A stretch of 64,000 bases of DNA from an uncultured Flavobacteriales bacterium. Its GTDB lineage: Bacteria > Bacteroidota > Bacteroidia > Flavobacteriales_G > Salibacteraceae. Both the position numbers and the translations under genes were made by a program. This document shows positions 22,333 through 25,114 of the stretch, piece by piece; position 1 is the first letter of the stretch; each line of letters opens with the position of its first letter. Location of the stretch: contig CAJXNO010000016.1 of NCBI GenBank assembly GCA_913057205.1, forward strand, positions 1 through 64,000. The letters are read 5' to 3'. The notes under the pieces were generated by a model that did not search any database, was not told where the DNA came from, and was given only the letters and a program-made list of their open reading frames with translations.

Positions 22333-22778
22333 TATTTTTTACCTAACCGGCGGTAGTAGTTGATCTGCCCCAGGTGGTAATTGAAATGGCCGTTCAAATG
22401 CTGAAGAAAGAAAGCATAGGTCATTGGCTCACCGAATACTTCGATCGGGTAGTTTGTGTTCAGCAGGTCCTCGTTGAACTCAGATAAAGCAGCAACCACT
22501 TCCCGCTCACATGCATCGATGCGGTCGAGTAAATCTTCCCGTTGCATGAAGGTAGTGCCAAATTCATGGGCGCGATCGCGTTCATAGCCGCTTTCGCCAA
22601 TCACATGTCCGATGAAGTGACGCAGGTTTCCTACGAGGTGCAGCACCAGATGACCAGCCGTGTTGGTGATTCCATCCTTTACCTTCCAGAGTGAATCATC
22701 ATTTGGAAAGGCATAGATCTCATCGCGCAATCGCCCAAGATCTCGTTGAAAGAGGATGAGAAGGGAATCGACGATCAC
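22332..22778 (-). CDS. DinB-like (DUF1572) four-helix protein
   Basis: The 148-residue protein fits the DinB/YfiT four-helix bundle: an N-terminal helix (LILFQRDLGRLRDEIYAFPN) and a metal-ligand helix with His residues (NTAGHLVLHLVGNLRHFIGHVIG). The C-terminal helix reads FFLQHLNGHFNYHLGQINYYRRL. The pattern of His residues on two helices suggests a bound metal ion; DinB proteins often act as thiol transferases. I start it at the GTG at 22778, where GTGA overlaps the stop of the upstream lipoprotein gene by 4 bp; a longer frame to 22817 is not needed. Function not established. Confidence 0.8.
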   Translation of the reverse strand: MIVDSLLILFQRDLGRLRDEIYAFPNDDSLWKVKDGITNTAGHLVLHLVGNLRHFIGHVIGESGYERDRAHEFGTTFMQREDLLDRIDACEREVVAALSEFNEDLLNTNYPIEVFGEPMTYAFFLQHLNGHFNYHLGQINYYRRLGKK

Positions 22779-23326
22779 TCGTCGTTGTCTTGACCGTATG
22801 CAGAACCCTCCGGGCATTCAGCTGGGGCCTTAACTGCGCCTTCACGATCGTCTATCATGTCGTCCATCAGGCAATCGCAGATCTTTTCGCGCTTCAGGTC
22901 GTAGTTGCGGTCACTTACTGCGCCGGGTTTCAATACACAAACACTGCCTTCTACTTCGATCAGTTCGCTGTTGCTCAGCCTGAGCTCGAAGGTGTAGTCG
23001 TATGAACCGTCCTTCACATCGCGTCCGTCCCAAAATGGTTCCAAGTGATCCTTGAGGTTGAATACCTCTTGTCTCCCGTCGCGAATGATCATGCTTTCGA
23101 TCTCATATCCTCTTCCACGTGCGGTGAAGTAATCGTTTACACCATCGTTGTTCGGTGTGAACGCTTGCGCGATGTAGAGGTTAAACGAATCCGGTGTCTC
23201 GTAGCGCGTGGTTACGATGCGGTATTCATCCGTGCAGCAATTGTTTTCGATGCGGTTCTTCTCGCAGCTGGTGGTGAGTGAAACAGCAGCACCAAGGATA
23301 AGGACAAAGAATAAACGATTCATCAT
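22775..23326 (-). CDS. Lipoprotein containing a gliding-motility-type C-terminal-like motif
   Basis: From the ATG at 23326 the protein starts MMNRLFFVLILGAAVSLTTSC, with a lipobox (LTTSC), so it is a predicted lipoprotein. The middle carries AFTPNNDGVNDYFTARGRGY, the opening of the CHU_C domain (type B T9SS sorting), followed by a matching 'IIRDGRQEVFNLKDHLEPFWDGRDVKDGSYDYTFEL' beta pattern. The chain then runs on into a Cys-containing acidic tail (KICDCLMDDMIDDREGAVKA). A CHU_C fold inside a lipoprotein and not at the extreme C-terminus is unusual. It overlaps the DinB-like gene by 4 bp. Confidence 0.75.
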   Translation of the reverse strand: MMNRLFFVLILGAAVSLTTSCEKNRIENNCCTDEYRIVTTRYETPDSFNLYIAQAFTPNNDGVNDYFTARGRGYEIESMIIRDGRQEVFNLKDHLEPFWDGRDVKDGSYDYTFELRLSNSELIEVEGSVCVLKPGAVSDRNYDLKREKICDCLMDDMIDDREGAVKAPAECPEGSAYGQDNDE

Positions 23327-23442
23327 GAGCTTATGGTTCTGAAAGATCAAATATACGAGGACTTATCGGCTTGTGTTTCGCGCCTTTAGGATACGCTACA
23401 AATTAATTCAATTGAAAATCAGTGGGTTGATTTTATATACCT

Positions 23443-23492
23443 AAGTAAATTATGTAATTTACTTTGATACATAAGAAACAGATGTATATTTG
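23443..23492 (+). promoter_or_regulatory. padR promoter with two inverted-repeat operators
   Basis: TTTG (23463-23466) and TATATTTG (23485-23492), spaced by 18 bp, form a near-perfect Bacteroidota promoter. The perfect inverted repeat AAGTAAATTA-TG-TAATTTACTT (23443-23464) abuts the -33 box. A second one, ATACAT-N9-ATGTAT (23467-23487), sits between the boxes; ATAC/GTAT and ATGT/ACAT arms are typical of PadR operators. The -7 box ends 4 nt before the ATG. Autorepression by PadR is a strong inference. Confidence 0.75.
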
Positions 23493-23496
23493 CCTT

Positions 23497-23847
23497 ATGT
23501 ATTCGAATGAGCTGATAAAAGGAACTTTAAAAACGGTGGTGCTGAGTCTCTTGGCCAAGAAAGGTAGGATGTATGGCTACGAGATCACCCAACACGTCAA
23601 GGAGGAAACCGAAGGGAAGATCCAACTTACGGAAGGAGCACTCTATCCGTTGTTGCATCGCCTGGAGGCGGATGGATTGCTCCTGACCGAGAAGGTGAGC
23701 ATCGGAAAGCGCGTGCGGAAGTACTACCGCTTAACCAAAGAAGGAACAGAAAGCGCTGCGAGCTTGGTAGAAGAATTCAAAGAGTTCTCCAAAACCATGA
23801 ATCGTCTACTCAATAATTACACCCTAACTACTGCATACCATGGCTGA
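23497..23847 (+). CDS. PadR-family transcriptional regulator
   Basis: The 116-residue protein has the PadR winged helix-turn-helix: ELIKGTLKTVVLSLLAKKG, then MYGYEITQHVKEETEGKIQLT, LTEGALYPLLHRLEADGLL, and a wing (GKRVRKYYRLTKEGTE). The C-terminal helix is short, as in the small PadR subfamily. The start at 23497 is fixed by the promoter box ending 4 nt upstream; the longer frame from 23464 would begin before the -7 box. It overlaps the next gene by 8 bp, forming a two-gene operon. PadR regulators often sit beside HAAS-domain membrane proteins, as here. Confidence 0.93.
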   Translation: MYSNELIKGTLKTVVLSLLAKKGRMYGYEITQHVKEETEGKIQLTEGALYPLLHRLEADGLLLTEKVSIGKRVRKYYRLTKEGTESAASLVEEFKEFSKTMNRLLNNYTLTTAYHG

Positions 23848-25114
23848 ATTGAACGAACATCAAATTGAACTGATCAGCGCTTACATCCGCCAGCACGGCG
23901 TAGCGCAAGATGAGTTGCACGATGACCTTCTCGATCATGTGTGCACTTCAATAGAACATAAAATGGACGGTGGTCAAGCTTTCGAGCAGGCTTTCGCCGA
24001 TACGATCAAGCTCTTTGGACCCGGGGGCTTAAAACAGGTCCAACAACAAACTTTTGAATTATTAACCGAAATGAATGAAACCATGAAAAAAGTAGCATTT
24101 GTATTCGGGTTGACTAGTGCATTTCTTCTCTTGGCGGGGACGATCTTCAAACTCATGCATTGGCCGGGGGCTAGCATAATGGTAGTGCTCGGGGGCGGCA
24201 TTTTAAGCTTACTCTATCTGCCTACCCTCTTGATCCACAAACTGAAGGAGTCGCCGAGAGGTGATGCTTTGCAGCACATCTCGGGCTTTGTGGGACTCGG
24301 CTTGACTGCGGTCGGTGTCACTTTCAAGATCATGCACTGGCCAGGTGCTGGTTTTTTGTTGATCGGCGGTATGACCACACTCGGTCTCTTCTATGTGCCG
24401 ATCTATTTTTTCCGTCAATACAAGCAGTCTTCCAATAAGCCTGTGACCTTATCTGCCGCCTTGGTGGCGATGACCTGCTTGATCTTGGTATTCGCCTTGA
24501 CCAATATGCGCACCAGCTCTGAAATGAACCGAGGATTGGCCCTGATCTCTGAAGAGTTGGCTAACGCCAATGATCGCTACATGGAGATCGATGCCTTGTA
24601 CGAACGTGCCGGTAGCTCTGAAATGGTGAGCGCCTTGCGCAAGAATGCGAGTGCAACGGTTGCTCTTCTGGATGCCTACAAGCATCACTTGATCGCTTAT
24701 ACCGAGGGTGTAAGCATAGAAGAGGCGAAAACGATTCGCGCCAGTGCCTTGAACCAGCGTTTCAGCTATGATGTGCCCACTCACATCTTGTTTCGGGGTG
24801 AAGGTGAACATGCCGAGTTTCACATCGATCGCGTGGTGGAAGCAGTGGAAGCCTTCGAGGCAGAGGTCCTCGGAGCCTACGAGCCCGGACTTCAAGCTAC
24901 CATGGGTGAATTGCTTCCCTTCGATACCGAGAAAAACTACACGATAGAGGGTAAGCAGGTGGATTGGGCTGCCTACCACTTCTATAAGATCCCATTGATC
25001 GGAGTGATCTCAGAACTTACCAACCTTCAGGTGAACGTGCGCAACGCGGAGATGCAAGCACTCCTACACATCATTAGTCAGCCCGCAGCTGCTGACCCGC
25101 CAAGTGGCAGCTGA
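23840..25114 (+). CDS. HAAS-domain membrane protein with GldL-like repeats and a GldM-like C-terminal region
   Basis: The 424-residue protein has three parts. Residues 1-75 (ELNEHQIELISAYIRQHG, then DELHDDLLDHVCTSIEHKM) match the HAAS-type small alpha-helical domain that partners PadR regulators. Residues 80-200 hold four membrane segments in two copies of a GldL-type hairpin, each with 'G-x-x-F-K-[LI]-M-H-W-P-G-A' (FKLMHWPGAS and FKIMHWPGAG). A fifth segment (LSAALVAMTCLILVFALTNM) leads to a helical region ending IPLIGVISELTNLQVNVRNAE, like the N-terminal domain of GldM. GldL and GldM form the T9SS/gliding motor. The Glu that GldL needs in its second helix is replaced by Leu in both copies. 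Motor activity is not established. Confidence 0.8.
   Translation: MAELNEHQIELISAYIRQHGVAQDELHDDLLDHVCTSIEHKMDGGQAFEQAFADTIKLFGPGGLKQVQQQTFELLTEMNETMKKVAFVFGLTSAFLLLAGTIFKLMHWPGASIMVVLGGGILSLLYLPTLLIHKLKESPRGDALQHISGFVGLGLTAVGVTFKIMHWPGAGFLLIGGMTTLGLFYVPIYFFRQYKQSSNKPVTLSAALVAMTCLILVFALTNMRTSSEMNRGLALISEELANANDRYMEIDALYERAGSSEMVSALRKNASATVALLDAYKHHLIAYTEGVSIEEAKTIRASALNQRFSYDVPTHILFRGEGEHAEFHIDRVVEAVEAFEAEVLGAYEPGLQATMGELLPFDTEKNYTIEGKQVDWAAYHFYKIPLIGVISELTNLQVNVRNAEMQALLHIISQPAAADPPSGS

Follow-up and report, generated by a model that had tools for sequence, protein, structure and literature searches.

Analysis of the window, the whole stretch of 64,000 nucleotides, showed the presence of a gene for a membrane protein in which a duplicated GldL part and the GldM domain D1 are fused in one chain, as shown by computation, with a HAAS-type domain at the N-terminus and a gene for a PadR-family regulator alongside. 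The locus is most readily regarded as a two-gene HAAS-PadR signalling unit, the membrane sensor of which is a non-motor relative built from the T9SS-type GldLM complex; this reading is preferred with moderate confidence, and the contact between HAAS and PadR, DNA binding, the signal and the regulon are all inferred. The genes padR (23497-23847) and the fusion gene (23840-25114) overlap by 8 nt. The encoded proteins and domains are as follows.

23497..23847, + strand: PadR-family winged-helix regulator, 116 aa (Pfam PF03551, 72.8 bits).
23840..25114, + strand: HAAS-GldL-GldL-GldM(D1) fusion protein, 424 aa (Pfam, AlphaFold model, Foldseek, HHalign).
23840..24079, + strand: HAAS-type cytoplasmic domain, residues 1-80, helices 6-18, 24-43 and 48-57 (MacB/FtsX permease-prefix homology, NF038403 in relatives, model).
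24086..24250, + strand: GldL-type hairpin 1, residues 83-137, with FKLMHWPGA and Leu122 at the GldL Glu position (Pfam GldL_N, model helices).
24257..24427, + strand: GldL-type hairpin 2, residues 140-196, with FKIMHWPGA and Leu181 at the Glu position (Pfam GldL_N 158-180, model).
24437..24502, + strand: GldM-type transmembrane (TM) helix TM5, residues 200-221, without the Arg of GldM 'PRQ' (TM-region alignment, model).
24518..25078, + strand: GldM D1-like periplasmic domain, residues 227-413 (Pfam GldM_1st, HHalign 99.8%, Foldseek to 7sau and 6ey0).

The fusion protein passes the Pfam cut-offs for GldM_1st (42.9 bits against 25, residues 261-412) and GldL_N (36.3 bits against 24, in two stretches). 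With the NCBIfam equivalogs TIGR03513 (GldL) and TIGR03517 (GldM), it scores 26.7 and 29.9 bits, far under the cut-offs of 68.3 and 180, respectively, so the protein is related to the T9SS proteins and is not one of them. Phmmer searches with the GldM and GldL of the same genome recover it with E = 1.5e-9 and E = 4.2e-9. The AlphaFold2 model, built with 63 homologues (mean pLDDT 89.7, pTM 0.70), is represented by three short helices (6-18, 24-43, 48-57), two hairpins, TM5 (200-221) and a helical domain (227-413), in this order; the hairpins are formed by four long helices, 63-105/111-137 and 140-164/170-196. In the Foldseek search against the PDB, the first 18 matches are all GldM/PorM, with nothing of note otherwise; among them are 7sau_A (E 6.4e-6, TM 0.67 on the target) and D1 of PorM, 6ey0 (TM 0.72-0.78). 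HHalign comparison of only the soluble part of the window protein's close relatives, the TM helix being cut off, with 16 GldM gave 99.8% (E 2.5e-27), the reversed-sequence controls reaching no more than 0.5%. Since the number of TM helices is odd and HAAS lies inside, D1 is periplasmic, as in GldM.

The sequence-only reading had described a HAAS domain, two GldL hairpins with HWPGA and a GldM-like end in one protein at 23497-25114; the coordinates are correct, and the architecture held by Pfam, fold and profile, its HAAS part on weaker evidence. The profile comparison with GldM and the comparison of folds that it had proposed were both passed, the former with the TM helix left out, the latter by the resemblance of the predicted fold to GldM. 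Its suggestion of a sensor or a non-motor relative is the best-supported reading. The large Bacteroidia family, the SpoIIE fusions, the three-hairpin form with a two-hairpin partner (5:2) and the two conserved operator-like palindromes, described below, go beyond it.

GldL and GldM (PorL/PorM; 7SAU, 7SAT, 7SAX, 7SAZ, 6YS8) constitute the proton-driven motor of T9SS and gliding, and the KxxHWPGA TM hairpin, the GldM-type TM helix and the D1 fold are shared by them and the fusion. In contrast to GldL and GldM, the fusion is a single chain located outside the gld operon, with the GldL part doubled or tripled and HAAS added, and a number of motor features are lost, namely, the TM2 Glu, the GldM Arg, the cytoplasmic domain of GldL and domains D2-D4. 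The Glu of GldL TM2 (E49 in F. johnsoniae) is essential for motor function and gates the conformation of GldM (PMC8986121). It is kept in all 19 true GldL compared and missing from nearly all of about 165 related fused hairpins, just two of which, in L070 and L115, have an acidic residue near this place according to an automatic scan. In both hairpins of the window protein the position is occupied by Leu (L122 and L181), as had been claimed from sequence alone. According to the TM alignment, the fused forms also lack the conserved N-terminal Arg of 'PRQ', situated before the TM helix in GldM. The D2-D4 shaft is absent, the window protein stopping at residue 424, 11 residues past D1; the long cytoplasmic C-terminal domain of GldL is likewise absent, and in the model the next TM helix directly follows each hairpin.

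Force generation is the known role of ion-driven 5:2 motors, and a single-chain, proton-driven, force-generating machine could be supposed from the homology with GldLM and the motif HWPGA, retained in both hairpins of the window protein. However, the essential Glu is lost, the ring is covalently tied to the axle, and a D2-D4 shaft extending to the outer membrane is lacking, which makes this explanation very unlikely.

The HAAS region of the window protein showed no match to any curated Pfam model. By BLASTP it matches the prefix at the N-terminus of a MacB/FtsX permease (E = 3e-10), which carries MacB_PCD and FtsX domains; MacB/FtsX was named as a HAAS partner type by Ravi et al. (PMC11237479). 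The model NF038403, 'permease prefix domain 1', is matched by 8 of 64 relatives, and the two examined score weakly, under its cut-off. The GxP motif of HAAS helix 3 is represented by LFGPGGL in the window protein, and Gly-Pro is absent from this place in many relatives. The HAAS label, weakly supported by curated models, is accepted as likely, with moderate confidence, because of the permease-prefix homology, the NF038403 matches and the strict linkage with padR. The latter gene adjoins the fusion gene in 76 of 80 loci, usually overlapping it or lying within a few nt, which bears out the PadR linkage claimed in the sequence-only reading; no other conserved neighbours were found across the 80 loci.

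A lipoprotein-like gene divergent from padR is located at 22775-23326 on the minus strand of the window, and its CHU_C type IX secretion signal domain scores 27.0 bits, at the cut-off. The CHU_C lipoprotein gene upstream of padR, followed by a DinB/DUF1572 gene, is present in several congeners; as a conserved partner it was rejected, representing synteny at the genus level.

Promoters of Bacteroidota are known to follow a -33/-7 consensus, and the following elements were found upstream of padR.

23437..23457, no strand: operator-like palindrome O1, ATACCTAAGTAAATTATGTAA, located immediately before the -33 element (pattern match, family motif).
23463..23466, + strand: Bacteroidota-type -33 element TTTG (read from the sequence).
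23467..23487, no strand: operator-like palindrome O2, ATACATAAGAAACAGATGTAT, which occupies the spacer and extends into the -7 element (pattern match, family motif).
23485..23492, + strand: Bacteroidota-type -7 element TATATTTG, 18 nt past the -33 element (read from the sequence).

The centres of O1 and O2 are 30 bp apart, and together the palindromes flank and cover the -33/-7 elements. An earlier TTG start of padR, offered by the ORF tool, falls in this promoter sequence; most relatives keep the -7 element directly ahead of the padR start. The 21-bp palindrome ATACATAAGNNNCTTATGTAT precedes padR in 66 of 77 family promoters by the criterion of at least 14 of 18 positions, reached by 17 of 1540 shuffled sequences. 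Binding of PadR at the palindromes, if it occurs, would mean autorepression of the padR promoter; the earlier statement that the fusion gene is under a PadR repressor remains an inference from the operators only, without binding data.

A variant operator, ATATATAAGNNNCTTATATAT, was observed in the padR promoters of L093, L101, L109, L110, L112, L115 and L128, mostly of the three-hairpin branch. It accompanies PadR proteins starting with MIS or MAS, not MYS, which suggests a joint change of regulator and site.

In the genome containing the window, the only listed sites of the operator pattern are the two at padR, and elsewhere than at padR the sites in 10 congeneric genomes are no commoner than those of the reversed-pattern control. 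Hence a search of this stringency, with 3 mismatches allowed, reveals no regulon in the 10 genomes, and the output may possibly be the operon itself alone. An alternative explanation is a closed loop, in which the membrane protein acts as the effector in its own right, for instance as a scaffold stabilising the membrane or the envelope, and HAAS-PadR merely sets its dose, without a wider regulon. The lack of excess of operator-like sites over the controls and the presence of padR as the sole conserved neighbour agree with it. However, weaker or half sites would escape the 3-mismatch search, and the SpoIIE fusions of the same module favour sensing; the closed loop is therefore considered unlikely.

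Of the 12 congeners searched, 8 have full-length orthologues with 41-62% identity, and many families of Bacteroidia contain relatives; a scan of 84,980 genomes revealed 489 relatives, the best 80 of which were retained. Most congeners have an intact orthologue, and the relatives are spread over many families, which all but excludes a chance gene fusion or a pseudogene decaying in a single lineage. Among 395 evenly sampled Bacteroidia genomes, the form with HAAS and hairpins was found in about 70 (counted by hand) and GldM in 369. Among 64 HAAS-two-hairpin proteins, Pfam detects GldL_N in 63 and GldM_1st in 20. Proteins of about 375 aa from Chitinophagaceae and Flavobacterium form a large clade with a weak D1 match (61.8% by profile comparison), and shorter relatives, with one or two hairpins and without D1, also exist. 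In the tree based on TM regions plus D1, a branch with SH-aLRT 93 splits GldM from all fused forms, and the architecture labels require 8 changes versus 42 when shuffled. Many inner branches of the tree are weak and some rows are long; a single origin of the fusion is likely, not proven.

Tandem duplicates of HAAS-two-hairpin-GldM genes behind a single padR were observed in L026 (4100-5377 and 5516-6811) and L123 (624-1769 and 1842-2984). The loci L027-L031 encode HAAS-less two-hairpin proteins with GldM D1, about 345-365 aa long, with neither padR nor SpoIIE as a neighbour.

A rarer form is represented by ten HAAS proteins of 466-490 aa, in which D1 is preceded by three hairpins and a seventh TM helix; GldM_1st of Pfam is passed by 8 of 9 of the three-hairpin HAAS proteins. 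In the model of one of them, based on a shallow alignment (pLDDT 75, pTM 0.44), the three hairpins are visible, and GldM/PorM are again first in Foldseek. Nine of the ten three-hairpin genes (8 of 9 in the main set plus L198) are followed by a gene encoding a protein of 311-329 aa that lacks HAAS and has two hairpins, the GldM TM helix and D1, and such a partner gene was not found after any two-hairpin HAAS gene (0 of 63). Together, the gene pair encodes five hairpins and two GldM parts, which is equal to the 5:2 make-up of GldLM (PMC9389320). The TM helix in the branch of three-hairpin proteins and their partners reads MYAVVLTCLLAMNVSK (L099) versus MMYLVLTALLAMNVSK in GldM. Family- and order-level searches round G547 revealed no further three-hairpin genes. 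For the three-hairpin gene of L128, which lacks a two-hairpin partner, a 266-aa protein with GldL-type motifs encoded elsewhere in the genome was considered and rejected, since it has no D1.

The 5:2 ion-driven motors include MotAB, ExbBD, TolQR, GldLM and ZorAB, and are proposed to rotate a ring against an axle. The fusion is related to GldLM among them, and the two-gene form has a matching set of parts; unlike in these motors, ring and axle are covalently joined and the ion-carrying acidic membrane residue is absent. It is inferred that the three-hairpin protein and its two-hairpin neighbour assemble together. A hypothetical homodimer of the window protein would have the ratio 4:2 instead of 5:2, which is unexplained.

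The same genome keeps separate genes gldKLMN on another contig (C54), and the fusion protein could be supposed to monitor the T9SS motor, inserting into or competing with the real GldL/GldM and reporting motor assembly or load to PadR. This explanation agrees with the nature of the hairpins and D1 as mutually contacting parts of GldL and GldM, with the retention of gldKLMN, with the divergent upstream gene of a lipoprotein with the CHU_C T9SS signal in the window and several congeners, and with the wide occurrence of GldM in the sampled Bacteroidia. However, GldM is too common for its co-occurrence with the fusion to be informative, and fusion-bearing genomes without a GldM match are mostly incomplete assemblies. 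No operator site was found at gld genes, the CHU_C neighbour is confined to the genus, and the three-hairpin/two-hairpin operons give the full 5:2 set without GldL. The motor monitor is accordingly considered unlikely.

The module of two hairpins and GldM D1, followed by an extra TM helix and a SpoIIE phosphatase, was found in two congeners, G001 and G007, as well as in several other families. These fusions have a length of 689-758 aa, with 73-76 bits for SpoIIE and 50-64 bits for GldM_1st; the Pfam scores cover two proteins, and the others were read from the sequence. As in SpoIIE-type phosphatases with N-terminal membrane sensors, the module represents the input part, but the output differs from that of the window protein, being a phosphatase attached via the extra TM helix after D1 instead of HAAS-PadR. 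The presence of two signalling outputs on one input module is the best argument for a sensing role.

SpoIIE fusions joined via the extra TM helix and a coiled coil are located in L024 (1446-3512), L025 (4388-6457) and L199-L204. Divergently, upstream of padR, SpoIIE-type proteins about 450-460 aa long, which contain GldL-like TM motifs (xxWPGA), are encoded in L090 (2141-3517), L106 (1995-3374), L112 (2161-3546) and L137 (315-1661, minus strand), of which L090 and L112 were checked with Pfam.

In the preferred reading, that of a non-motor sensor, PadR would repress its own promoter via O1 and O2, as inferred from the operators without binding data. The fusion protein is predicted to dimerise through D1, like GldM, its hairpins surrounding the two GldM-type helices. 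A change, such as membrane state, a periplasmic ligand or load, would be sensed by D1 or by the bundle of hairpins and relayed to the cytoplasmic HAAS domain, which may bind or release PadR. In the three-hairpin branch, the HAAS protein would pair with its HAAS-less two-hairpin neighbour, rebuilding the exact 5:2 complex. With a covalent link between every hairpin and a GldM helix, the ring cannot rotate against the axle, and since the Glu is missing, no proton drive is expected; for both reasons the protein is read as a sensor. A bolder reading, for and against which the evidence is roughly balanced, is that in Bacteroidota the GldLM rotary motor was converted into a locked membrane sensor of general use: the fusion of ring and axle in a single chain or in two, with 3+2 hairpins and 2 GldM parts, would fix the 5:2 geometry and stop rotation, and the conformation would be read via HAAS-PadR or SpoIIE. 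If true, this would be a sensor class derived from a rotary motor.

A widespread, apparently non-motor and covalently joined relative would reveal uses of the GldLM scaffold without proton flow, and the ratio of 3+2 hairpins to 2 GldM parts offers a natural test of stoichiometry. For annotation, it follows that domain matches to GldL or GldM do not always indicate T9SS motors. Full-text search found no paper on GldL-like/GldM-like proteins, nothing relevant on GldL linked with PadR and nothing on GldL with SpoIIE, subscription papers being outside its scope. The HAAS-PadR dyad and the GldLM motor are already known; within the literature searched, their union is likely to be undescribed.

According to PMC11237479, HAAS-PadR pairs are signal systems that employ a variety of TM sensors. 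The dyad of HAAS and PadR wHTH and the locus of the window share an N-terminal HAAS-type domain on a multi-TM protein and an adjacent stand-alone padR gene, but the GxP motif is not conserved across the fusion family, and the sensors listed, namely, PspC, LiaI-LiaF-TM, Toastrack, FtsX/MacB, FtsW/RodA and others, do not include GldL/GldM (PMC11237479). A sensor derived from GldLM would be a further type of sensor in HAAS-PadR and in SpoIIE signalling. Another type of HAAS sensor was observed in L114 (2537-3397) and L116 (2488-3363), where padR is followed by genes of a protein with HAAS, a single TM helix and an extracytoplasmic domain and of a second single-TM protein, this gene pair standing directly upstream of the HAAS-GldL gene.
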